From assembly GCF_000950575.1 (NCBI RefSeq), contig NZ_CP011005.1, forward strand, positions 1,178,001 to 1,242,000: a stretch of DNA of 64,000 bases, in the 5' to 3' direction. Position 1 is the stretch's first letter; each line of letters starts with the position of its first letter. Under the pieces are notes generated by a model, which worked only from the letters and a program-made list of their open reading frames with translations, had not been told where the DNA came from and ran no database searches. Source of the stretch: Psychromicrobium lacuslunae. Its GTDB lineage: Bacteria > Actinomycetota > Actinomycetes > Actinomycetales > Micrococcaceae. Below are positions 23,883-35,384 of this stretch, piece after piece. The translations under genes were made by a program, and so were the position numbers.

Positions 23883-23936
23883 AACAAGCCTTATCCTATG
23901 GCCGAGTAAATCGGCCGTTGCTGGCACCGAGAGTCA

Positions 23937-24221
23937 TCACCCGGTGATTTGTTTCAACGCCTCGAGATGTCCGAAGTAAGCCCTCCGGCCAACCGAGGTC
24001 AATGAGAGACTCAGCCGAGATCGCCCAACGCGACTGATCTTTGATTCTCTAAGATACCCTGCCTCGACCAACTGCGAAACATGCTTGCTGAGCGCCGATT
24101 TTGAAATATCCAATCGTGACTGCAATTCGCTGAACTCAACACTAGAGGCAGCTGCGACGACGGCACAGATCCGCAATCGCTGTGGCGCGTGGATGAGCTC
24201 GTCAAAGACCGGTTCAGGCAT
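23937..24221 (-). CDS. Winged-helix transcriptional regulator (ArsR/MarR-like)
   Basis: A 94-residue single-domain regulator. The DNA-reading helix is in LDISKSALSKHVSQLVEAGYL and the wing in RLSLSLTSVGRRAYFGHLEAL. It overlaps the upstream membrane-protein gene by 8 bases, so the two are cotranscribed and probably translated together. Such pairs are usually autoregulated; the twin palindromes over the upstream start codon are the likely operator. Confidence 0.82.
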   Translation of the reverse strand: MPEPVFDELIHAPQRLRICAVVAAASSVEFSELQSRLDISKSALSKHVSQLVEAGYLRESKISRVGRSRLSLSLTSVGRRAYFGHLEALKQITG

Positions 24222-24657
24222 TGCCTGTTGCTTTGCGGTAACGGCGCCCCATCTCCAGGGTCACCAAGCCGGCCAGCACGCCGGCCACCAACCATAGCCA
24301 CCACTCCTCAAAACCGATGGCCAGCACCGCCGGGATGCCAGCGAGTACCAACATAATCAGCAGGTACGGGAAAGCTGCGTCGCCGTCCAAGCCGACCACT
24401 CCATAGCCACGCCGGTAGAAGACATTGCGAATACCCAATATCAGGGCCACCAAGATGCCTAGGATGGCCACTCCGCTGGAAAACGGAGCCGGGAACACTT
24501 GCGCAATAAAGATCATCGCCAACGCAACGGCCTGGACAATAAAGAACCACCAAGAGAGCTGCGGATTCTTGGTAGCAGACTCCTCCCCCTTGGCAAGGTT
24601 CAACAGTTCTCTCGCTTCTTCCGGCGAGACACCCTTGCCGGGATCGTTAGTTTCCAT
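24214..24657 (-). CDS. Four-helix membrane protein paired with a winged-helix regulator
   Basis: 147 residues: a charged N-terminus of about 33 residues, then four predicted membrane helices (WWFFIVQAVALAMIFIAQVF, GVAILGILVALILGI, FPYLLIMLVLAGIPAVLAI, WWLWLVAGVLAGLVTL). Function unknown. No ribosome site precedes the ATG at 24657, and the start codon lies inside an operator-like palindrome, so the mRNA is probably leaderless. Confidence 0.75.
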   Translation of the reverse strand: METNDPGKGVSPEEARELLNLAKGEESATKNPQLSWWFFIVQAVALAMIFIAQVFPAPFSSGVAILGILVALILGIRNVFYRRGYGVVGLDGDAAFPYLLIMLVLAGIPAVLAIGFEEWWLWLVAGVLAGLVTLEMGRRYRKATGNA

Positions 24658-24695
24658 AGTGGAAACAGTAGCATCTGAGTTTCCGTTATGGAAAC
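24650..24695 (-). promoter_or_regulatory. Twin operator palindromes GTTTCC-N5-GGAAAC
   Basis: Two palindromes with identical half sites, 24650-24666 and 24679-24695, start 29 bp apart. The first covers the ATG of the membrane-protein gene. The arrangement fits cooperative binding by the dimeric winged-helix regulator encoded downstream, blocking its own promoter. The link to that regulator is inferred from position. Confidence 0.65.
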
Positions 24696-24728
24696 TAGTG
24701 GCAGGTAATGAAATCTTTCGCGTTAACG

Positions 24729-24767
24729 CATTGAAGGTCTGCCGTAGTGGCAGACCTTCAATGTTTT
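24729..24767. terminator. Hairpin terminator at the left island junction
   Basis: A perfect 15-bp inverted repeat (24729-24743 and 24749-24763) with a 5-base loop, followed on the plus strand by TTTT. Seen from the minus strand it sits 6 bases beyond the tRNA-like 17-bp repeat, so it was probably the original terminator of the tRNA-Ala gene before the island inserted. Confidence 0.75.
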
Positions 24768-24768
24768 G

Positions 24769-24785
24769 GTGGAGCTGAGGGGACT
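24769..24785. repeat. att-like direct repeat, left copy
   Basis: GTGGAGCTGAGGGGACT, identical to 35168-35184. The match stops abruptly on both sides (G versus T before, A versus C after), as expected for an attachment core. Confidence 0.78.
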
Positions 24786-24885
24786 AGCATGCAAATGAAC
24801 TGCCGAAGGCGCATCGATTCCCTCGGCGCGGGCCCGCCCAAATCGGGCCGAGCGGACCATCACCGCTAGACGCAGGGCACAGCCG

Positions 24886-25210
24886 TGGGTCTCCGACGAG
24901 CGGGTTCGCCAAATCACTGAGCGCTCCGCAATGGGAGAGGTGGTCTACAAACTAGCAATAGAGTTCAACTGCCATCGCGTCAAGATCAGTGCCGTTTTGA
25001 AGCGCCGAGGCGTCGCCCTGCGGCTTCAGCCTGCCGCGCAAGAGGACATCGAACGGATGATCGAGCTCCACAAGCCGGGGCTCTCTCGCCGCCGTGGGCG
25101 AGACCGTCGGAGTCAGCGCAAGCCAGGTCTTGAGGCATATTCGGGACAACGGCGTGTCAACACGCAGTGCCTCATACCGACGCAGCAACGACCTACTCGG
25201 AACGCAATGA
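24886..25210 (+). pseudogene. Serine-recombinase C-terminal remnant, frameshifted
   Basis: In one frame the sequence encodes VVYKLAIEFNCHRVKISAVL then KRRGVALRLQ and an acidic helix. This is the paired helix-turn-helix pattern found at the C-terminus of serine recombinases / resolvases. After PGLS the pattern continues only in a different frame (LAAVGETVGVSASQVLRHIR DNGVSTRSAS) to a stop at 25208-25210. A two-base loss in the CT-rich stretch near 25080-25090 explains the break. The catalytic domain is missing and no start is evident. Probably the decayed recombination gene of the island or of an older element. Confidence 0.6.
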
Positions 25211-25272
25211 ACCCGATGACATGGACTGCGCATGGTCACGAACAGAGACAGCCGTCCGCCAGACGAACGGCA

Positions 25273-27165
25273 TCACAAGCCGAGCTGAAGCTTGTACTTC
25301 TCGCGGCGCTTCCGGAACGCCTCTTCGCCACCGTCAAGGATCTCGCAGGCGTGCTCGCGAATTCCGAAACGGCCCAGCGTCGTATCGCTGGACTTGTTGA
25401 GCGGCTGAGAGTGTTCCAGCGCCCCCGTGAAGTACTCGAACGTGCGGCCGTCAGCATTCTTGCGATCGTCGCCGTGTCGGTTGGCAACTATGACCTGCTC
25501 CGAGTCGGCACCAATGACGAGGTTCGCATTGTGACTGACCATGATGATCTGGCGCTCTCGTTTACGTTTCGCGAGGTAAGGAACGATAGTCTCGTAGATC
25601 GAGCGGCTATCCAGGTCATCTTCAGGCTGGTCGACTAGCAATGGCCACGGCTCCTGGGACTCATTCAGAATTAACGTAAGCGCGAAGAGCGCTTGCTTTC
25701 CGGGGGTCATTGACGAGCGCGTAAAGCCACCGATTCGGTCGCCATCCAATTCAGCAGAAAAGCGGACTTCCTTAGTCACCGAAAGCACCTCAGCTGTCAC
25801 AGAACTCGGCTCATAACCCTTGTTGAGCACCACCGTGCCGTCACGGAGAGCTCTCATGAACTTCCCCGGGTCTGCCTGAGCATCCGAATATGAGACGACC
25901 TCCCCCTTGCTCTTGACGTAGTCGTTGGTGCTACGTTGGTTGAATCCGATCGACGCGTGCGCGACCGCTTCCTGAGTCACGTCGGTCTCGATCCCAAACT
26001 TGAGATCGGTTAGCAGCCGTTCCTGCGTGTCGAAGGCTGACTCAAGAGTCACGAGCGCTGCAGCACGGTCCTCGATGCCCTTATCCGCCTTTGCAACCGT
26101 AGCAACCTGATCAGTAAAAAGCTGATCACGCGACTTCTCGCGCTTGGCGATCTCTTCGAGACTCGCTGCCTGCTTCTTGTGATCCGCGACGACTCCTGCC
26201 AGCTCCTCGTTGGCCTCATGCTTGGTGATCAGGTCAGCGTTGTCTTTCTTGAGGCGTTGGATCTCGGTCCTCAGCGTCGTGCGCTCCGCCTGTATGGTTG
26301 TTACCGTCTCGACGAGCATCGCCTCGATCTTCGCAACGAGCTCGTTTGCGGCACGAGCCTTCAGCTCCTCGATTCTTGAAACGACCAATTCCGGAACTTC
26401 GACCGCGGAGGGCCGCACGGTCACTGTGGCTTGAACAGTCTGCGGGAGGATTGTCGCAGCAGTCGAATCATCCGGCAGAACGACGAAAGATGAAAGCTGG
26501 TCAAGTTCGACAGTGATCTCTTTGAGCCGAACTTCCTTACTGTCGATCTGTGCGGCGATCCCTTGATACTTCGAGACCTCTTCATCGGTCAGCTTCGCAG
26601 CAGCCTTGATCCGATCGATCTCACCTTGCAGTCGATCTCGCTCAACGGTAATGGCCACTTTGTCGCCAAGATCCTTGATCTCCTGGATAAGAGCTTCGAT
26701 CCGATCCTCTAATGAAAACCACTCGTCAATTGCCGCCTTGATGGCCGTGTTGGAAGCGGTAACCTTGCCCATCGCACTGTCATATGCAGTCTTGACTGTC
26801 GGGTAGGTGCGGAAGAGCGCCGGAGCGATCTTCTTGGTGATCTCATCCGGCTGTTCGCTGAGGGTGTACAGCGAGTTCTGTGGAATGTATATGACCTTAC
26901 CCGCGGTGGCGCTACCGGATTCCCACTCGACCTCGCACCTGACACCACTGACTTCTGCCCAAGTGAAGCCTGCGGCTGGTCCTACCTCGTTCTCACCCAA
27001 GCCCGATGCTTCGGCCTGGATACGAGCCGTTTCTTGCGGGTTTACAGCATGAGAAATAAATGCGAGTAAGGCGGACTTGCCAGACGACCGGCTACCAATA
27101 AACGAGTTAAGGTTTCTATTGAACAGCACCTCAGTCGGGAAGTCGTCCGTCCCAGAGAAGGTCAC
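25273..27165 (-). CDS. TrlF-like AAA ATPase, C-terminal part (separated by an in-frame stop)
   Basis: 630 residues from a GTG at 27165. The N-terminus carries Walker A (FIGSRSSGKSALL, Lys at about 30). A long coiled-coil arm follows (about 125-400), and the C-terminus has the SMC/RecF-like Walker B (LLVDQPEDDLD at about 508-518), the H-loop (IIMVSHNANL) and the family ending GGEEAFRKRREKY. It lies in exactly the same frame as the upstream PHP gene; only one TAA codon and five sense codons separate the two. No clear ribosome site precedes the GTG. Full-length TrlF-type proteins have PHP and AAA parts in one chain of about 900-950 residues, so this is probably the back half of an interrupted gene. 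Reinitiation to give a two-subunit form is possible. Confidence 0.75.
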   Translation of the reverse strand: MTFSGTDDFPTEVLFNRNLNSFIGSRSSGKSALLAFISHAVNPQETARIQAEASGLGENEVGPAAGFTWAEVSGVRCEVEWESGSATAGKVIYIPQNSLYTLSEQPDEITKKIAPALFRTYPTVKTAYDSAMGKVTASNTAIKAAIDEWFSLEDRIEALIQEIKDLGDKVAITVERDRLQGEIDRIKAAAKLTDEEVSKYQGIAAQIDSKEVRLKEITVELDQLSSFVVLPDDSTAATILPQTVQATVTVRPSAVEVPELVVSRIEELKARAANELVAKIEAMLVETVTTIQAERTTLRTEIQRLKKDNADLITKHEANEELAGVVADHKKQAASLEEIAKREKSRDQLFTDQVATVAKADKGIEDRAAALVTLESAFDTQERLLTDLKFGIETDVTQEAVAHASIGFNQRSTNDYVKSKGEVVSYSDAQADPGKFMRALRDGTVVLNKGYEPSSVTAEVLSVTKEVRFSAELDGDRIGGFTRSSMTPGKQALFALTLILNESQEPWPLLVDQPEDDLDSRSIYETIVPYLAKRKRERQIIMVSHNANLVIGADSEQVIVANRHGDDRKNADGRTFEYFTGALEHSQPLNKSSDTTLGRFGIREHACEILDGGEEAFRKRREKYKLQLGL

Positions 27166-27180
27166 TTTGCTAATGACTTT

Positions 27181-28104
27181 TTACGGCTCTTTCAGGTCGG
27201 GCTCAGCCACTTGAATGGCTACCCGTTCGTCGGGTTCAATCAAGGTCTGGAGCAAACCCGCAAAAGTTGGATCCGCTTTGATCCATGTAATGTTCCGGTG
27301 CGAGCCGCTGTCCGTAATATGCTTCCCCAACCCGGTTTCCAGGTCTTCGAATGAGTGAGCATCGCAACCATCAAATACCGGTTTCGGAACGGTCTTCTCG
27401 TCACCTTCCAATCGATTCGCGTTGAGAAAGTACTCTCGCGATTTGGAACTGGCGTTGGCATAAAACCCATCTGAGTACTTGTCAATCTCATCACTGAGCA
27501 AGCGCTTACGTTGGATGCCGTTGTTGCCTCCAACACGGATCCCGTCGCCCTTTGCCGAAGCAACAATCAGCACATGCTGGGGACGTTCGCTGCGATGGAC
27601 AGCATGCTCGCCAAACGTATCTTTAATGGCCCGCTCGATGTTGTCGAGAGAGACTGTCGCGCTATTGAACTGATCGGACGTCGCAAGGTCCTTGCAGGTC
27701 GTTCGGGTCTTTGTGGCACCTGAAGTTCCTTCCGTCGTCAGGTGTCCAAGAAACTTATCGGCCTCGTCCTTCGTCAGCGTCGGACGAAAGATCAGATGGA
27801 GATTGACATTTTGGCCCTCCCGATTGACGGCAACAGGTAGCCGTAGTTCCAGATTCGGCAGCAGCAACTTGTCGTCGTCGGGGAACATCTCGGTGTACTT
27901 TTGTCTGACCGCGAAATAGCTGTCGAGCGAGAAGTAGTCCGCGACCGCAACTGCCGCAACATCCGAATCGTGAAGAATCTGACAGAACTTCGCGAGGTCC
28001 GGCTCGCCGCTATTAGCGGCGTATCCGTCGTTCATTTTGTTCCCAGGCGCGTGGACATGGAGATCCCACTTACGCCATTCAGATCCCCTCGGATGCTTGT
28101 TCAT
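27181..28104 (-). CDS. TrlF-like PHP domain, N-terminal part (ends at an in-frame TAA)
   Basis: 307 residues from the ATG at 28104, which has an AAAGGA site; an ATG at 28119 that overlaps the hsdR stop is the alternative. It begins with the PHP metal-binding motif WDLHVHAPG (H16, H18) and has DYFSLDSY and a distal GCDAHSFEDLETGLG block. PHP domains are metal-dependent phosphoesterases. In TrlF-type proteins the PHP part is fused to an AAA ATPase; here the frame ends at TAA (27181-27183) and the rest of the chain continues directly afterwards. It is the last gene of the island operon. Confidence 0.75.
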   Translation of the reverse strand: MNKHPRGSEWRKWDLHVHAPGNKMNDGYAANSGEPDLAKFCQILHDSDVAAVAVADYFSLDSYFAVRQKYTEMFPDDDKLLLPNLELRLPVAVNREGQNVNLHLIFRPTLTKDEADKFLGHLTTEGTSGATKTRTTCKDLATSDQFNSATVSLDNIERAIKDTFGEHAVHRSERPQHVLIVASAKGDGIRVGGNNGIQRKRLLSDEIDKYSDGFYANASSKSREYFLNANRLEGDEKTVPKPVFDGCDAHSFEDLETGLGKHITDSGSHRNITWIKADPTFAGLLQTLIEPDERVAIQVAEPDLKEP

Positions 28105-28115
28105 CGTCAGTCCTT

Positions 28116-31100
28116 TCATTCTCCCGCGGTGAGCCCGAAGAACCGCTCAAAGAACGTGCCGAGCTTCTGGATCACACGTTGCTTCTTCTCGCCGTGTCCA
28201 CCATCTGTGGCGAACCGCGAGATCGGTGGCAGCACCTTTGTGATGGCGGTGCCGCTGGTGCGGATCTGGCCGTCGCGGAATGCGGTCTCGACGAACGCGC
28301 GGGTCTCCTCTGCACGAAGATTCTCGTCGGCGATAATCGTCCCGAGTTCGGCCTGGCGCTTGGCAGCGATGAACGCGCTCCACTCCTGGTCGATCTCGCC
28401 GTCCACAGAGAGCGAGTCGACGAAGTCCTCGATGAGGTCTTTTTTGTTTCGCAGGGTCGGGCTGGCGTCCACGGCGCGAGAGATTTCGGCGCGGATCTCC
28501 TTGTCGTCACCGTCTCCGCGTTCGTCGCGGTACTTCTGCACGAGCATGAGGATGTAGTCGACGTTGATCTCGACCTGCTTGATCAGCTCGATCTCGAAGA
28601 CGATGTCGTCATTGATCTGTTCCTTGTCGGCGTCCTTGTCCTTGCCGAACTCCGCATACAGGTCGAGGTAGACGCTGCGGTAATCCTGACCCTGGCGGTC
28701 GGTGAGGATTGCGTTGCCGATGAACTCGTCGAACGAAGTGAGGATATTCTGCAGGCGCAGGATCGCGCCGAACAGCTTAATGAACTCCTTCTGAGCAGCC
28801 TCGCCGATAATCGGCTGACCGAGGGGGAAGGTGCTGAGTAGTTCGGTGACTTTCTCGGCGTAGTCGTTGTAGTACTCGCCGTACGGTTTGAGAAGCACGA
28901 CACCGCGGGCGTCCTTGTTTCCGAACAGCGCAATCGCATCGTTTGTCTCGTCTTCGAGGTCACGGAAGCTGACGATGTTGCCATAGGTCTTTACGGAGTT
29001 GAGGATGCGGTTCGTGCGCGAATACGCCTGGATCAGTCCGTGCGCACGCAGGTTTTTGTCGACGAACAAGGTATTCATCGTGGTCGCGTCAAAGCCGGTG
29101 AGGAACATGTTCACTACGATGACCAGATCGAGATCCCGGTTCTTCAACCGTTGCGAAAGGTCTTTGTAGTAATTCTGGAAGCGGTCGGCGCTCGTGTCGT
29201 AGCTGGTCCCGAAGATATCGTTGTAGTCCTGGATCGCATCCTCAAGGAAGCTCCGGGAGTCGGTCGACAACGCGTCGGTGTCGAATGCCTCTTCGTCGAG
29301 GATGCCGTCTTCGACGGCGTCGTTCGCGCCGTAGGAGTAGATGAGGCCGATCTTCAACCGACGATCCGGTGGCAGCTGTACTTGCTGCATCTGGAAGTGA
29401 TTGTAGTAGCGGCGAGCAGCATCGATAGAGGCGGTCGCAAAGATCGCATTGAAACCACGCACCCTCTTCCGCTCTCGTACGGCCGCCGCCTGCCGCTTTG
29501 TGCGTATGGACTCAGACACGTTCGTGACAACGGAGTGCTCAAATATAGAGGAGCGTTTCGTCTTCTGATCGAAGTGCTCGAGCGTGTACTTCACGATGTC
29601 GGAGATGCGGCGCGAGTCGAGCAGGACGCTCTCTTTGTCGATCGCAGACACCTGGCTGTTGTCGGGATTGCCAACCTTGATCGTGTTCACATAGCCGATC
29701 CGGAAGGGGAGCACGTTCTTGTCGGTAATCGCATCGACGATCGTGTACGTATGCAGCTTTTCACCGAACGCCTGCTCGGTGGTCTTGAGCTGTGGGTTCC
29801 CGCCGCTGCCGGAGTTGGCGGAGAAGATCGGCGTACCGGTGAAGCCGAAGAGGTTGTATCGCTTGAAGGCCTTCGTGATCGCGGTGTGCATGTCGCCGAA
29901 CTGCGACCGGTGACACTCGTCGAAAATGATCACAACATGCCCGTCATAGATGGCATGGCCCTTGTTCGCGGCGATGAACGTTGAGAGCTTCTGGATCGTC
30001 GTGATGATGATCCGCGCACCCGGGTCTTCGAGCTGCTTCTTCAGCACCGCAGTCGAGGTGTTCGAGTTCGCCGCGCCCTTCTCGAACCGGTCATACTCCC
30101 GCATCGTCTGGTAGTCCAGATCCTTACGATCCACGACGAACAACACCTTGTCCACGCTCGGCAGCTTCGACGCAAGCTGCGCGGCCTTGAACGACGTCAG
30201 TGTTTTGCCAGACCCGGTGGTGTGCCACACGTATCCGCCCGCAGCGACGGTCCCGAGAGTCTTGTAGTTGGTGGAGATGTCGATCTTCTGCAGAATCCGC
30301 TCGGTCGCCACGATCTGGTACGGGCGCATCACCAGCAGCATCCGGTCAGCGGTGAGCACGCAGTACTTCGTCAGAATGTTCAGTAGCGCATGCTTGGCGA
30401 AGAACGTCTTCGCGAACGCCGACAGCTCCTGAATCGGCTTGTTCTGCGCATCTGCCCACCACGACGTGAACTCGAACGAGTTCGACGTCTTCCGCACTCG
30501 CTTGGAACCGGCAGCCTCGCTCAGATGCTGGCGACGAGTGGTGTTGGAGTAATACTTCGTGAGCGTCCCGTTAGAAATCACGAACAACTGCACATACTCG
30601 AAGAGCCCGGAACCTGCCCAGAAACTGTCACGCTGGTACCGGTCGATCTGATTGAACGCCTCACGGATGTCGACGCCACGCCGCTTCAGCTCGATGTGCA
30701 CCATCGGCAGCCCGTTCAGCAGCACCGTCACGTCGTAACGATTCGAACGAGCCGAGCTGCCTTCGCCCTGACCGATCTCGTACTGGTTGATCACCTGCAG
30801 GCGATTGTTGTGAATGTCCTGCTTGTCGATCAGCAGGATGTTCTTCACCGAACCGTCATCACGCTTCAGCAGCTGAACGTGATCCTCCTGAATCCGCACC
30901 GTTTTCTCGACGATGCCGTCGTTCGCGCCAGCAATCCGCTCCGAGAAGAACTGCTCCCACTCCGCATCAGAGAACGTCAGCGAGTTCAGGGCTTCGAGCT
31001 GGGCACGGAGGTTAGCGACGAGTTGCGTTTCCGATCTGATCGGCAGATACTCGTACGCCTGAGACTGCAACAGCCGGATCAACTCACGCTCAAGCTCCGC

Positions 31101-31211
31101 CTCAGACTGATACGACCCAGCACCCGCCACGTCAGGGATGTACTCAGCAACAACCGTACTCTCGGACGACACGGCAATCGGGTCATACTTGCGTGGAGTA
31201 GCGTCACTCAT
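28116..31211 (-). CDS. hsdR: Type I restriction enzyme, R subunit
   Basis: A 1031-residue DNA translocase and endonuclease. An N-terminal PD-(D/E)xK nuclease (about residues 150-180, RYDVTVLLNGLP then HIELKRRG) is followed by a superfamily 2 motor with Walker A in HTTGSGKTLTS, DECH in IIFDECHRSQ, and TGTPIF. Together with HsdM and HsdS it cuts unmodified foreign DNA far from the recognition site. The start at 31211 overlaps the ATPase gene as ATGA; an ATG five codons upstream is also possible. Length is normal and no frameshift is seen, so it is likely functional. Confidence 0.95.
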   Translation of the reverse strand: MSDATPRKYDPIAVSSESTVVAEYIPDVAGAGSYQSEAELERELIRLLQSQAYEYLPIRSETQLVANLRAQLEALNSLTFSDAEWEQFFSERIAGANDGIVEKTVRIQEDHVQLLKRDDGSVKNILLIDKQDIHNNRLQVINQYEIGQGEGSSARSNRYDVTVLLNGLPMVHIELKRRGVDIREAFNQIDRYQRDSFWAGSGLFEYVQLFVISNGTLTKYYSNTTRRQHLSEAAGSKRVRKTSNSFEFTSWWADAQNKPIQELSAFAKTFFAKHALLNILTKYCVLTADRMLLVMRPYQIVATERILQKIDISTNYKTLGTVAAGGYVWHTTGSGKTLTSFKAAQLASKLPSVDKVLFVVDRKDLDYQTMREYDRFEKGAANSNTSTAVLKKQLEDPGARIIITTIQKLSTFIAANKGHAIYDGHVVIIFDECHRSQFGDMHTAITKAFKRYNLFGFTGTPIFSANSGSGGNPQLKTTEQAFGEKLHTYTIVDAITDKNVLPFRIGYVNTIKVGNPDNSQVSAIDKESVLLDSRRISDIVKYTLEHFDQKTKRSSIFEHSVVTNVSESIRTKRQAAAVRERKRVRGFNAIFATASIDAARRYYNHFQMQQVQLPPDRRLKIGLIYSYGANDAVEDGILDEEAFDTDALSTDSRSFLEDAIQDYNDIFGTSYDTSADRFQNYYKDLSQRLKNRDLDLVIVVNMFLTGFDATTMNTLFVDKNLRAHGLIQAYSRTNRILNSVKTYGNIVSFRDLEDETNDAIALFGNKDARGVVLLKPYGEYYNDYAEKVTELLSTFPLGQPIIGEAAQKEFIKLFGAILRLQNILTSFDEFIGNAILTDRQGQDYRSVYLDLYAEFGKDKDADKEQINDDIVFEIELIKQVEINVDYILMLVQKYRDERGDGDDKEIRAEISRAVDASPTLRNKKDLIEDFVDSLSVDGEIDQEWSAFIAAKRQAELGTIIADENLRAEETRAFVETAFRDGQIRTSGTAITKVLPPISRFATDGGHGEKKQRVIQKLGTFFERFFGLTAGE

Positions 31212-32275
31212 GCCGCTACCGCCCATCTGAACGCCTTCAAAAACTCCTGAAACTCGCTCCTAAATGCTTCCTTGTACTCTGCGGCCACCTCAGAGGTATC
31301 GATATCAGCGAATCGGTCATGGCTGTACAGATTAAGAACCTTCACCACCAGGGGGGCATCCGGCCCGACCAGGAGATCGCCCCAACCTCCGGTGTATCCG
31401 AGGAAGTTTGCCGTCTTCTCGAGCAGTGCTCGGAACTGATTGAAGTGGGCTCGCTCAATCGCATTCGCAAAGATCGCCCCTTGAATTTCTTCGATAATCC
31501 CTAGGTGATAGCTGAAAGGCGAATCCTTTGACTGCTTAGCAAGCGTCCACCCGGTGACAGGCCCTCGGGCAAGAACGTACGCCCGGTCACTCCTCCGACG
31601 GAGCGAATTGAACAGAACATTGAAGAAGAGAGCGTGATGAGTGGCGATCACGAATCTCAAGTTGATCTCTGCCGCTCGCTTAATGAGCCCCGACAACTCA
31701 AGCGCCACTGATACGATACGCACATCGTCCATGGATGACACCGGATCATCTATGACAGCGAGCGTTAATTGGTCATAGTCATCCGTAGAACGCAGCTCGG
31801 GGTTATCACGAAGCGTCTCAATCGCTTCGCTCAAAACAGAGTAGTAAACGCTCCAAACAAATATGCTTTCCTCGGCTCGAGATATTTTAATGCCATCCGC
31901 CGAGGTGTCATCACCCTTGTGTATGCCAAAGCTAATCTCTCCATTTTCGAAGTCAAGCCTTGGTTCAATTCTGCCGCTCGTGAAGGCTTGGAAGTTATCG
32001 ATGATCGCACCATCGAGGCCTTGCGTCACGATCGTCGCTAGTAGCTCCGACTCCAGATTCATCCTAAGCACCACTCGCTCGTTGTCCCAGGTGAATAAGT
32101 CCTCGACAAAAGAGTTATAGAGTACGACGCCCTCTGGGTCATCCTCCTTAAGGTGCTGAGCCAGCCGAGTTTTACCGACCGTGTTTGGAGCGTAAATCAG
32201 GGCGCTACGCGAATCGGCAAGACCCTGCAATACCTCGTCGGCCAAGCTCGCGACTGTTTCATGACGGCTCGTCAT
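31208..32275 (-). CDS. PrrC-like anticodon-nuclease ATPase inside the hsd operon
   Basis: A 355-residue ABC-type ATPase. Walker A is APNTVGKT (residues 29-36, first Gly replaced by Ala), the signature-like ISRAEES is at 131-137, Walker B VIDDPVSSMDD near 174-184 and the H-loop ATHH near 191-194. LYNSFVEDLFTWDNE (52-66) is typical of the AAA_13 / PrrC group. In the C-terminal third, FRALLEK gives Arg282 and Glu286, and LNLYSHDR gives His319. The spacing R-x3-E-x32-H closely matches the Arg-Glu-His nuclease triad reported for E. coli PrrC. Like prrC it sits among hsd genes, directly after hsdS with no gap. PrrC is held silent by the restriction complex and cuts tRNA when a phage inhibits that complex; the same role here is an inference. 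Confidence 0.7.
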   Translation of the reverse strand: MTSRHETVASLADEVLQGLADSRSALIYAPNTVGKTRLAQHLKEDDPEGVVLYNSFVEDLFTWDNERVVLRMNLESELLATIVTQGLDGAIIDNFQAFTSGRIEPRLDFENGEISFGIHKGDDTSADGIKISRAEESIFVWSVYYSVLSEAIETLRDNPELRSTDDYDQLTLAVIDDPVSSMDDVRIVSVALELSGLIKRAAEINLRFVIATHHALFFNVLFNSLRRRSDRAYVLARGPVTGWTLAKQSKDSPFSYHLGIIEEIQGAIFANAIERAHFNQFRALLEKTANFLGYTGGWGDLLVGPDAPLVVKVLNLYSHDRFADIDTSEVAAEYKEAFRSEFQEFLKAFRWAVAA

Positions 32276-33442
32276 CTAGACAGCCTCCTTGAAGGCCAGC
32301 AGCTTGTCACGGTAGTACTCATACTGCTTACGACGCGCGGCAAGCTCCGCAGGAAGACCAACGCTGAGGTCGTTGACGAGCGCGTCGAATTTGTCGAGAA
32401 CAGAGCCGATGCACAGTTGCTCATTAGCCCGAGGCACGTCGACTACAAGTTGATTGAGCGTGCCCACCGCAAGTCCCGGCTGTGCGGACTTCGAAGCATA
32501 CTGATTCAGATTCATGCTTGTGAGTAAGTGGAATGCCCATCGAATATCCACGCCATCACGCGGAGTGACAACGACAGCATGTTCAGTTGCATAAAACTCG
32601 CCATCCGCGCGTTTAACATTCCCGCAAAGTGCACCTTGTCGACCAATCACCACAAGATCGCCCCGTTGATTTGGTGACGCGACATACCCTCGTAGACCTC
32701 CTCCGCCAAAACACGGGACGGTATGTCTCGAGTCGGGAAGCGGGACGATCTCAGAAGCAGTGATGAATTTCCCCGCGCGCAGGTCGAAAAGCTCGTCCAG
32801 CCGAGCCTGATGGCGTTTCACCCCGTCACCCATCAGGAGATCATTGCGGTAGTGCTCGTATTGGCGGCGGCGCGCTTCCAACTCCGCTTCCAACTCCGCT
32901 TCCAACTGAGTGAACTGGTCCAATATTCGCACAACTTCCCTCTGCACCTCGAGGGGCGGCACGGGGAACCTGAACCTCTTGAATCCGGTCATGTCCACTG
33001 AAGCGAAACTGGACGTAGTGGTGTTGTTGCGGCACCACTCATCGAGAACGAAACCGTAGTAATACATAAATTTCATGTCGATCTGGTCGGCATAGTCCGA
33101 CTTGATCGAAAGCGAGGTAAATCTCTGATTTGAAAGGTGAGGCACGGTCACAAGAGCGTGTTCGCCGATCGTCGCAGAGGTGGCGACAAGTAGTGAGTTT
33201 GCGGGGAACAGCTTTCCGCCCTTGACTGCAACTCCTGGAACCCGTTGGAGTGCGTGATCAAGTACGCCACCGTTGGCTCGTATGTCCTCCATGCGAAACC
33301 AAGGAACATTTCCGTCCGACCAGAAGGAAGCATTTGATTTTGACGGGGTGTACCCGTTCCTAAGATTGAAGAGCTGAGCGACCTCAACGTAACGAACTCC
33401 GTCCGGGCAAAGCTCTGCGATCAGTTTGTCGATCCGACTCAC
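32276..33442 (-). CDS. hsdS: Type I restriction-modification, specificity subunit
   Basis: 388 residues with the two-fold layout of HsdS: target-recognition domain 1 (about 1-160), a central conserved helix (about 165-200), target-recognition domain 2 (about 200-350) and a distal conserved helix ending RRKQYEYYRDKLLAF, which mirrors RRRQYEHYRNDLLMG in the central helix. It picks the two half-sites of the DNA recognition sequence. The ATG overlaps the hsdM stop as ATGA. The central helix contains a repeated LEAE unit. Confidence 0.93.
   Translation of the reverse strand: MSRIDKLIAELCPDGVRYVEVAQLFNLRNGYTPSKSNASFWSDGNVPWFRMEDIRANGGVLDHALQRVPGVAVKGGKLFPANSLLVATSATIGEHALVTVPHLSNQRFTSLSIKSDYADQIDMKFMYYYGFVLDEWCRNNTTTSSFASVDMTGFKRFRFPVPPLEVQREVVRILDQFTQLEAELEAELEARRRQYEHYRNDLLMGDGVKRHQARLDELFDLRAGKFITASEIVPLPDSRHTVPCFGGGGLRGYVASPNQRGDLVVIGRQGALCGNVKRADGEFYATEHAVVVTPRDGVDIRWAFHLLTSMNLNQYASKSAQPGLAVGTLNQLVVDVPRANEQLCIGSVLDKFDALVNDLSVGLPAELAARRKQYEYYRDKLLAFKEAV
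32875..32910 (-). repeat. 12-bp tandem repeats in the hsdS spacer helix
   Basis: Two perfect copies of CTTCCAACTCCG (32875-32886, 32887-32898) and a third matching 9 of 12 bases (32899-32910). They encode the repeated four-residue unit LEAE in the helix that spaces the two recognition domains. Gain or loss of one unit would keep the frame and lengthen or shorten the helix. Confidence 0.85.
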
Positions 33443-35007
33443 GCCGTGCCCTCCAGATCTGCGACGATGGCGTCGATGGAGGTGCGGAGCTCGGCCTGGC
33501 GGGCGACGATGCTGGCGATCTCGGCGTTAAGTTCCGTGATGTCGACGATCTCGCGGGTGTCTTCAGCTTCAACATACGAGGAGACGGCGATGTTGTAATC
33601 GTTGGCCGTGATGCCTTCGTTCGACACGAGGGTGGCGACGTGGTCGACACTTTCCCGGGCGGTGAAGGTGTCGAGGATGTGCTGCTGGTTGACCTCGGTG
33701 AGCTTGTTCTTGTTGCCGGTGCGTTTGAACTGGTCTGAAGCGTCGATGAAGAGTACTGCGTTGTCGGTCTTGGATTTCTTGAGCACGATGATGCAGGTGG
33801 CAATCGTGGTGCCGAAGAACAGATCCGGTGGGAGCTGGATGACGGCGTCAACGTAGTTGTTGTCGATGAGGTACTTGCGGATCTTCCGTTCCGCGCCGCC
33901 TCGGTAGAGCACACCAGGGAACTCGACAATGGCCGCGGTCCCGTTGACGGCGAGCCACGACAGGATGTGCATCGTGAAGGCGAGGTCGGCCTTCGACTTC
34001 GGTGCGAGCACACCAGCGGGGGCGAAGCGCGGGTCGTTGATCAGCAGCGGGTTGGCGTCGCCGTCCCACTTGATCGAGTAGGGCGGGTTGGAGACGATCG
34101 CTTCGAACGGTTCGTCATCCCAGTGGGCTGGGTCGGTGAGGGTGTCTCCGTGGGCGATGTTGAACTTCTCGTAGTTCACGTCGTGCAGGAACATGTTGAT
34201 TCTGGCAAGGTTGTAGGTGGTCAGGTTGATCTCCTGACCGTAGAAGCCCTGTCGCACGTTTTCTTTGCCGAGGACTTTCGCGAACTTCAGCAGCAGTGAT
34301 CCGGATCCGACGGCGGGGTCGTAGACCTTGTTCACCTGGGTCTTACCAGCCACGGTGATGCGGGCGAGGAGCTCTGAGACTTCCTGGGGTGTGTAGTACT
34401 CGCCACCGGACTTGCCCGCGCTGGAGGCATACATCTGCATGAGGTACTCGTAGGCGTCACCGAACAGGTCGATCGAGTTATCCTCGAAGTTCCCCAGCGG
34501 CAGGTCACCAATCGCATCCAGCAGTTTCACGAGCTTCTCGTTGCGCTTAGCGACCGTGTTACCGAGCTTGGAACTGTTGACATCGAGGTCGTCGAACAGG
34601 CCTTTGAGGTCATCCTCAGCATCGGTGCCGACGGCGGAGCCTTCGATGTTCTTGAAGACACGAGCGAGGGTCTCGTTCAGGTTGGCGTCGTTCGCGGCGC
34701 GCTTGCGGACGTTCTGGAACAGCTCGGAGGGGAGGATGTAAAATCCCTTTTCCGCCACAGTCACATCTCGCGCTACCTCTGCAATAGAATCTGACAATGT
34801 GGCGTAACCGAATCCTGTTTCGCCTGCCTCGTGTTCTCCGTTATTGATATATGCGGTGAGATTCTCGGAAATGAATCGATAAAAAAGAATGCCAAGTACA
34901 TAGCTCTTGAAATCCCACCCGTCGACACTGCCCCGCAAGTCATTGGCGATCCGCCAAATCGTCTTGTGCAATTCTGCTCGTTGTGTCTCTTTGGTCGTGG
35001 GGGTCAT
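33439..35007 (-). CDS. hsdM: Type I restriction-modification, N6-adenine methyltransferase subunit
   Basis: 522 residues. The HsdM N-terminal helical domain is followed by the methylase fold with the SAM motif DPAVGSGSLLL (230-240) and the catalytic motif SNPPYS (306-311). It methylates adenine in the recognition site in complex with HsdS. The ATG at 35007 has an AGGAGA site 7 bases upstream; the open frame extends 40 codons further but without family similarity. First gene of the island operon; hsdM-hsdS-ATPase-hsdR are joined by overlaps of 4 bases or none, so they are one transcript. Confidence 0.95.
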   Translation of the reverse strand: MTPTTKETQRAELHKTIWRIANDLRGSVDGWDFKSYVLGILFYRFISENLTAYINNGEHEAGETGFGYATLSDSIAEVARDVTVAEKGFYILPSELFQNVRKRAANDANLNETLARVFKNIEGSAVGTDAEDDLKGLFDDLDVNSSKLGNTVAKRNEKLVKLLDAIGDLPLGNFEDNSIDLFGDAYEYLMQMYASSAGKSGGEYYTPQEVSELLARITVAGKTQVNKVYDPAVGSGSLLLKFAKVLGKENVRQGFYGQEINLTTYNLARINMFLHDVNYEKFNIAHGDTLTDPAHWDDEPFEAIVSNPPYSIKWDGDANPLLINDPRFAPAGVLAPKSKADLAFTMHILSWLAVNGTAAIVEFPGVLYRGGAERKIRKYLIDNNYVDAVIQLPPDLFFGTTIATCIIVLKKSKTDNAVLFIDASDQFKRTGNKNKLTEVNQQHILDTFTARESVDHVATLVSNEGITANDYNIAVSSYVEAEDTREIVDITELNAEIASIVARQAELRTSIDAIVADLEGTA

Positions 35008-35125
35008 ATCTCGTCTCCTGCGCTTATGCGCGCCGATCATCTCGCTTGACTTCGTCGTCTTCCACACTATCCGGGAGCTATGACAGAGAGGAGTATCCCA
35101 CGCAATAAGAATTTCAGAGTTGCAC

Positions 35126-35161
35126 AAAAAGAGAGGACCTACCGAAACGGTATGTCCTCTC
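35126..35161 (-). terminator. Rho-independent terminator of tRNA-Ala
   Basis: An 8-bp stem (35131-35138 with 35154-35161), one mismatch, a 5-bp inner stem and an AAA loop. On the minus strand it is followed by TTTTT (35126-35130). It lies 7 bases past the mature tRNA end and inside the island boundary, so the island brought its own terminator when it replaced the tRNA end. Confidence 0.85.
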
Positions 35162-35167
35162 TAAAAT

Positions 35168-35184
35168 GTGGAGCTGAGGGGACT
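35168..35184. repeat. att-like direct repeat, right copy (tRNA 3' end)
   Basis: Same 17 bases as 24769-24785. Covers the discriminator base, the 3' acceptor strand and part of the T arm of tRNA-Ala, with one base beyond. Confidence 0.78.
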
Positions 35185-35241
35185 CGAACCCCTGACCCCC
35201 TGCATGCCATGCAGGTGCGCTACCAGCTGCGCCACAGCCCC
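35169..35241 (-). tRNA. tRNA-Ala (anticodon GGC)
   Basis: 73 bases fold as a complete cloverleaf. The acceptor stem is GGGGCTG with CAGCTCC and holds the G3-U70 wobble pair that marks alanine tRNA. The anticodon stem CCTGC/GCAGG carries the loop ATGGCAT (anticodon GGC), the T arm reads GGTTCGAGTCCCC, and the discriminator is A. CCA is not encoded. It is the integration target of the island. Confidence 0.97.
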
Positions 35242-35292
35242 AAGTTGCCGAAGCAACTTGTCTATCTTAGAACAGCATTTTCAGCTTGCCAA
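35241..35292 (-). promoter_or_regulatory. tRNA-Ala promoter and 5' leader hairpin
   Basis: TTGGCA (35287-35292), 17 bases and TAAGAT (35264-35269) form a strong minus-strand promoter. Between it and the tRNA lies a perfect 8-bp hairpin (35241-35260) whose loop on the RNA is UUCG, ending right at the mature tRNA 5' end. Confidence 0.75.
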
Positions 35293-35384
35293 ATCGGCCA
35301 CGCCCCGGGCCCTGAGCCGGTCTCGAAGACACGATGATGGCTCTGGCTGGGCCATCAGGAAGCTACTGCCGACCGCTCTGAATC

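Follow-up and report, generated by a model that had tools for sequence, protein, structure and literature searches.

The gene between hsdS and hsdR in the 64,000-nucleotide stretch of Psychromicrobium lacuslunae DNA analysed here (the window) is predicted to encode an anticodon nuclease of the PrrC type and thereby the fourth component of an EcoR124-like restriction system of type I. From comparative sequence evidence, we estimate the probability of this reading at about 0.9. PrrC proteins are thought to respond to a phage that disables the neighbouring restriction enzyme by cutting a tRNA and so halting protein synthesis. We assign the gene to PrrC, in a locus ordered as in E. coli, because it matches a family profile with E=5.8e-89, carries a catalytic triad that aligns with the E. 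coli residues and is invariant among its homologues, and is linked to hsd genes. An earlier note had placed an ATPase gene between hsdS and hsdR, at exactly the coordinates found here (Table 1; the frame is on the minus strand), and had read it as a guardian RNase of a type I system with a PrrC-like triad, in the position of the E. coli prrC. A PrrC in a type I locus is well supported by the profile match, the alignment, the conserved triad, the order of the operon and the tree.

Table 1. Coordinates of genes, motifs and residues at the prrC locus (positions are those of the window; residue numbers are those of the window PrrC)
Feature	Position	Strand	Basis or remark
prrC, 355 aa, no cysteine	31208..32275	-	ORF call, PADLOC profile
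hsdM	33439..35127	-	First possible start TTG 35127; Pfam, NCBIfam
hsdS, 388 aa	32276..33442	-	Pfam, PADLOC
hsdR, 1036 aa, EcoR124_C domain	28116..31226	-	Pfam, NCBIfam, PADLOC
tRNA-Ala(GGC) gene	35168-35241	-	Directly upstream of hsdM
TrlF-family AAA-like ATPase (NF045780), N-terminal part	27181-28119	-	NCBIfam
TrlF-family AAA-like ATPase (NF045780), C-terminal part	25273-27165	-	NCBIfam
Walker A APNTVGKT, residues 29-36	32168..32191	-	A29 family-wide; T32 in 11/11 actinobacterial rows
Conserved block YNSFVEDLFTWDN, residues 53-65	32081..32119	-	Alignment
Degenerate ABC signature SRAEES, residues 132-137	31865..31882	-	Alignment
Walker B / D-loop LAVIDDPVSSMD, residues 172-183	31727..31762	-	Alignment
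THH, residues 212-214, candidate linchpin His	31634..31642	-	Alignment; E. coli has THS
Region aligned with E. coli tRNA-recognition segment (E. coli 284-303)	31505..31537	-	D251 aligns with E. coli D287
Presumed nuclease domain, C-terminal and helical, residues 254-348	31232..31516	-	Models
Arg282 codon	31430..31432	-	Aligns with E. coli R320
Glu286 codon	31418..31420	-	Aligns with E. coli E324
His319 codon	31319..31321	-	Aligns with E. coli H356

The hsd operon and the integrity of prrC

The genes are arranged in the order hsdM-hsdS-prrC-hsdR, as in the E. coli prrC locus. The ATG of prrC comes directly after the TAG stop codon of hsdS, and its 3' end is overlapped by hsdR. This overlap measures 19 bases if hsdR starts at the first ATG (31226); with the second in-frame ATG as its start, the overlap shrinks to an ATGA (31211-31208). 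Since actinobacterial HsdM homologues align only from residue 17-44 on, the true start of hsdM is probably internal to the frame given in Table 1. Both HsdM and HsdR exceeded the curated Pfam and NCBIfam cut-offs. HsdS scored above its Pfam cut-off and matched PADLOC specificity profiles, and no NCBIfam model reached its cut-off for this protein. HsdR carries the EcoR124 C-terminal domain (Pfam), which we take to be a mark of type IC restriction-modification systems; the same domain was present in all six other HsdRs tested, which came from both of the gene arrangements described below. The tRNA-Ala(GGC) gene beside hsdM could be an integration point of defence genes. Flanking direct repeats of at least 20 bases (14-base seed) were not found in 23900-35300.

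The gene following hsdR overlaps its end by 4 bases, encodes a TrlF-family protein and is interrupted by one in-frame TAA. Within the bacterial family to which the host belongs, 9 of 149 genomes exceeded the TrlF cut-off, the host's own included, and only its own copy has the stop. The NCBI family appears to be named after a Photorhabdus temperature-restriction locus, for which the name TrlF is used (PMC7554251). Such a broken neighbour would fit a prrC that is itself decayed and inactive. However, prrC, hsdM, hsdS and hsdR all have uninterrupted reading frames, the triad and the ATPase motifs are present, and comparison of prrC with ten of the 11 actinobacterial copies (the partial copy L010 was left out) gave pN/pS values of 0.16-0.30, which indicates that prrC is under purifying selection. 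A decayed prrC is thus very improbable.

Family membership, catalytic triad and ATPase

The PADLOC PrrC profile (PDLC02360) matched the window protein over residues 7-352. The same profile matched an E. coli plasmid protein annotated as anticodon nuclease with E=1.5e-147. Weak matches to this profile are unspecific, as two of the 14 control genomes and larger proteins also reached E≤0.001. In Pfam, AAA_13 remained below its cut-off (27.5 versus 36 bits), and no NCBIfam model matched at E≤1. The E. coli plasmid protein comprises 396 aa, is encoded in the order hsdM-hsdS-X-hsdR and is identical to the window PrrC in 122 of 354 aligned columns (34%). From its length, residue numbering, name and gene order we infer that it is E. 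coli PrrC or very close to it; the experimentally tested catalytic residues of E. coli PrrC are numbered R320, E324 and H356 (PMC2610378, PMC3014915).

To collect relatives, genome contigs were scanned with six peptide patterns, a procedure that favours sequences having these peptides, AEESIFVW and THHALFFN among them. Among 87 stretches, 45 relatives were found. The 11 actinobacterial homologues share 62-84% identity with the window protein and the 34 others 28-44%; ten of the former were placed in Actinomycetota with the tree, and the eleventh is the Galactobacter locus L010.

With 355 aa the window protein fits the size range reported for PrrC (341-416 aa, PMC2610378) and has no zinc-hook insert. 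This distinguishes it from RloC, a DNA-damage-responsive nuclease that shares the type of triad (R-x3-E...H) and the ABC ATPase. RloC is about twice the size (658-897 aa), bears a zinc-hook coiled coil in its ATPase and is rarely linked to restriction-modification systems (PMC2610378), whereas the window protein contains not a single cysteine and all 45 homologues are hsd-linked. In addition, 32 residues separate Glu from His in the window protein, versus the 36-52 reported for RloC (PMC2610378). On size, the missing cysteines and zinc-hook insert, and spacing, we rejected an RloC identity and give it next to no probability.

Arg282, Glu286 and His319, singled out in the earlier note as an R-x3-E with a distant His as in PrrC, were confirmed and align with R320, E324 and H356 of the E. 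coli anticodon nuclease. R-x3-E occurs four times in the protein, and only in the case of R282/E286 does a His follow the Glu at a distance of 25-41 residues. When the residues of the protein were shuffled 20,000 times, the exact spacing of the triad arose in 3.5% of cases and a Glu-to-His spacing of 28-36 residues in 25%. Taken alone, this motif is therefore near chance; its meaning comes from the alignment. The shuffle frequency of the spacing and the sub-threshold Pfam match would be compatible with a non-nuclease ABC ATPase that accompanies the restriction-modification system and carries the triad by coincidence. But the three residues, aligned with those tested in E. coli, are invariant in 46 of 46 sequences (the window and 45 of 45 homologues), down to 28% identity, and the six peptide patterns that selected the homologues contain none of the triad residues and no part of Walker A. 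A coincidental triad is therefore very improbable.

The N-terminal motifs of an ABC ATPase were all found, namely Walker A, a degenerate signature, Walker B and a candidate linchpin His. The invariance of THH is partly forced, because THHALFFN was one of the search patterns. The strongly conserved block at residues 53-65 is possibly the 15-residue 'PrrC box'. The Walker A motif was found where the earlier note had seen it, with Ala in its first position, but the suggestion that this Ala is peculiar and might tune the latent state of the protein did not hold. Ala occupies the position in 42 of the 42 rows that reach it (four rows are gapped), and the E. coli protein, with AFNGTGKT, has it too. 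Since every scored homologue and E. coli carry Ala, a tuning role of Ala29 in the window protein is unsupported, and we rejected the residue as a special feature; it is a family-wide trait.

Three other positions set the actinobacterial rows apart. T32 of Walker A is present in every actinobacterial row that reaches it, versus Gly in 28 of 32 others and in E. coli. A134 of the ABC signature is found in 12 of 12 actinobacterial rows, versus Gly in 30 of the 33 scored others and in E. coli; it also occurs in the near-copies L017 and L018 and sits inside a search pattern (AEESIFVW), which may favour it. D320, right after the catalytic His, is again shared by 12 of 12 actinobacterial rows, versus Gly in 29 of 33 others and Ser in E. 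coli. As the actinobacterial rows are related, each change probably reflects one event. Judged from the alignment, these changes could alter or weaken PrrC activation.

In an AlphaFold2 model of the protein (mean pLDDT 85.7), R282 and E286 are separated by a single turn of helix 275-292, and H319 is located at or just past the end of helix 307-317. The C-terminal domain modelled in isolation (mean pLDDT 84.6) is all-helical, with four long helices. Foldseek searches with the whole model gave 70 matches at E≤0.001, comprising ABC heads (Rad50/SMC) as well as chains of the retron IA complex and of Septu (PtuAB; ranks 5, 7 and 13), with low TM-scores by query length of 0.28-0.36 among the 50 matches listed. 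The retron IA and Septu chains are presumably ABC subunits; the effectors of these systems differ. The isolated C-terminal domain had no match in the PDB at E≤0.001, and its second-ranked match was a HEPN toxin at a non-significant E=0.74. PrrC has been assigned to the HEPN superfamily (PMC3710099). The HEPN motif Rx4-6H was not found at the catalytic His of the window protein, where Lys312, 7 residues before His319, replaces an Arg of E. coli; an Arg at a distance allowed by the motif occurs in 35 of the 47 rows, including E. coli. A sequence search of the PDB found no solved PrrC structure, the best matches being 5da9 (a Rad50, E 0.0079) for the full profile and 9hxn (0.027) for the E. coli protein.

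tRNA recognition and a proposed mechanism

E. coli PrrC is reported to cut tRNA-Lys poorly if either wobble modification is missing, and its D287 has been argued to contact the modified wobble base (PMC3014915). The aligned position, D251 in the window protein, is occupied by Asp in all 12 actinobacterial rows and in 27 of 35 others including E. coli. The remaining positions of the recognition segment diverge from E. coli, and the segment is two residues shorter. Since the two-residue gap is common to the non-actinobacterial rows shown, E. coli is the differing one.

The mnm5 group of the wobble base is made by MnmE and MnmG and the 2-thio group by MnmA. The window's genome (99.98% complete) yielded no match to MnmG at E≤0.001 and four matches to MnmE, all far below the cut-off (best 79.8 versus 252.6 bits), together with a clear MnmA and a tRNA-Lys(UUU) gene. 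We then surveyed MnmG in the hosts of 23 of the 45 loci (completeness of these 23 genomes not given). None of the 11 other actinobacterial hosts gave a match, whereas 11 of 12 non-actinobacterial hosts exceeded the cut-off; the twelfth is an archaeon. Among the control genomes, that of Corynebacterium glutamicum matched MnmG at E≤0.001 (cut-off status not stated), and 9 of 14 controls were over the cut-off. As MnmG was not detected, the actinobacterial hosts should lack the mnm5 modification that E. coli PrrC reportedly needs, and the actinobacterial PrrC branch probably meets tRNA-Lys without this group. In that case recognition would be relaxed or the target would differ. The tRNA-Lys(UUU) gene and MnmA imply that a UUU target, probably thiolated, exists. 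Thus, the target or the recognition mode of the window PrrC may differ from those in E. coli.

A stronger version holds that the nuclease no longer targets tRNA-Lys and that the branch has switched to a different tRNA or RNA while still being Hsd-controlled. This would be a sub-case of the PrrC reading and does not exclude it. The distribution of MnmG and the shortened recognition segment point in this direction, as do reports that tRNA-Lys cleavage is severely affected without either modification and that substrates may vary among PrrCs (PMC3014915). On the other hand, the Asp aligned with D287 is kept throughout the actinobacterial rows, the genome encodes tRNA-Lys(UUU) and MnmA, and the gap recurs in non-actinobacterial rows. 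We consider such a shift of target possible but rather doubtful.

Returning to the PrrC reading as a whole, one of the closest described systems is PrrC of E. coli EcoprrI (type IC). Both loci share the gene order, the ABC ATPase joined to a C-terminal domain, the aligned Arg, Glu and His, the Walker A Ala and the Asp at position 287. The window PrrC differs in its length (355 versus 396 aa) at 34% identity, in T32, A134 and D320 versus Gly, Gly and Ser, in the two residues fewer in the recognition segment and in a genome in which MnmG was not found. By analogy with E. coli PrrC, the window protein would cleave RNA under the control of HsdR. The Hsd complex would hold PrrC silent until a phage product disables or distorts the complex on unmodified DNA. 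The nucleotide-driven ATPase would then release the C-terminal nuclease, which would use Arg, Glu and His to cut a tRNA in the anticodon loop, and this cleavage would stop translation and abort the infection. Given the lack of an MnmG match in the genome, the substrate might, speculatively, be tRNA-Lys or another tRNA that is read without the mnm5 wobble modification; the trigger, also speculatively, might be an anti-restriction factor of the host's own phages and not T4 Stp. Tentatively, and at less than even odds, we propose that the actinobacterial PrrCs are a branch of their own, which evolved for a tRNA without mnm5 or for a different tRNA, is released by some anti-restriction factor of actinobacteriophages, and has a rebuilt nucleotide site (T32, A134) that changes the switch. 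Since E. coli PrrC reportedly needs wobble modifications, one of which is apparently missing here, the branch offers a natural test of PrrC tRNA recognition, and also of what takes over from T4 Stp as the trigger outside coliphages.

Relatives, gene arrangements and distribution

PrrC is a kind already known, and an actinobacterial member has been on record since 2008, when the protein of Brevibacterium linens BL2 was listed (Table 1 of PMC2610378); a Brevibacterium copy in our set (L012) is 81% identical to the window protein. By 2010, orthologues in 19 distant bacteria had been counted (PMC3014915). PrrC170 of Klebsiella quasipneumoniae, likened here to the window PrrC by description, likewise accompanies a type I system and is reported to arrest growth and to target tRNA-Lys (PMC11555353). 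A literature search that covered few subscription papers found no experimental study of an actinobacterial PrrC. Our analysis places a clear PrrC branch, from 11 named actinobacterial genomes and the window's, in the classical guard system, and names a protein that has no NCBIfam match and is sub-threshold in Pfam.

A match to hsdM and/or hsdR on the same strand was present in the fetched stretch of all 45 homologues. The order hsdM-hsdS-prrC-hsdR was found in 15 loci, prrC-hsdR in L010 (on a truncated contig) and hsdM-prrC-hsdS-hsdR in L013. In the remaining 28 of the 45 loci (L019-L046) prrC precedes hsdM. Of these, 19 have hsdR upstream and one (L020) has it downstream; hsdR was not found in the stretch of the other eight, two of which (L021 and L029) extend nearly 6 kb upstream.

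The tree comprised 43 sequences (41 loci, the window and E. coli; four partial loci were left out), with a midpoint root used for drawing only. The window and ten Actinomycetota rows formed one clade (100/100), which belongs to a larger group of 18 sequences together with E. coli PrrC and L013-L018 (100/100). The placement of E. coli within this group is weak (86/54) and carries a long-branch warning. The prrC-before-hsdM loci, 25 of the 28 being in the tree, lie on the opposite side of the drawn root.

In the family to which the window's genome belongs, PrrC matches at E≤0.001 came from 7 of 295 genomes. Four of these matches look PrrC-like: the window's own and those in G362, G588 and G334 (the last split over two contigs), the stretches of these three also containing hsd neighbours. 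The other three matches were partial, with 27-29% identity in frames of 768-795 aa. PrrC was found in none of the six same-genus genomes listed. A phylum-wide profile search gave 6 of 296 genomes at E≤0.001, with a full match only in the window's own; the other five were partial and lay in open frames of 502-894 aa. With so few matching genomes in the family and none among the same-genus genomes listed, the distribution of the locus is sporadic, as is usual for defence genes. When a plasmid collection was searched with tblastn, 113 records matched, mostly from Klebsiella (71) and Escherichia (15); in 105 records the match spanned at least 80% of the query. PrrC and hsd genes were also present in an archaeon, Candidatus Methanoperedens nitroreducens (L030), whose sequence the tree groups with those of Bacillota (98/97).
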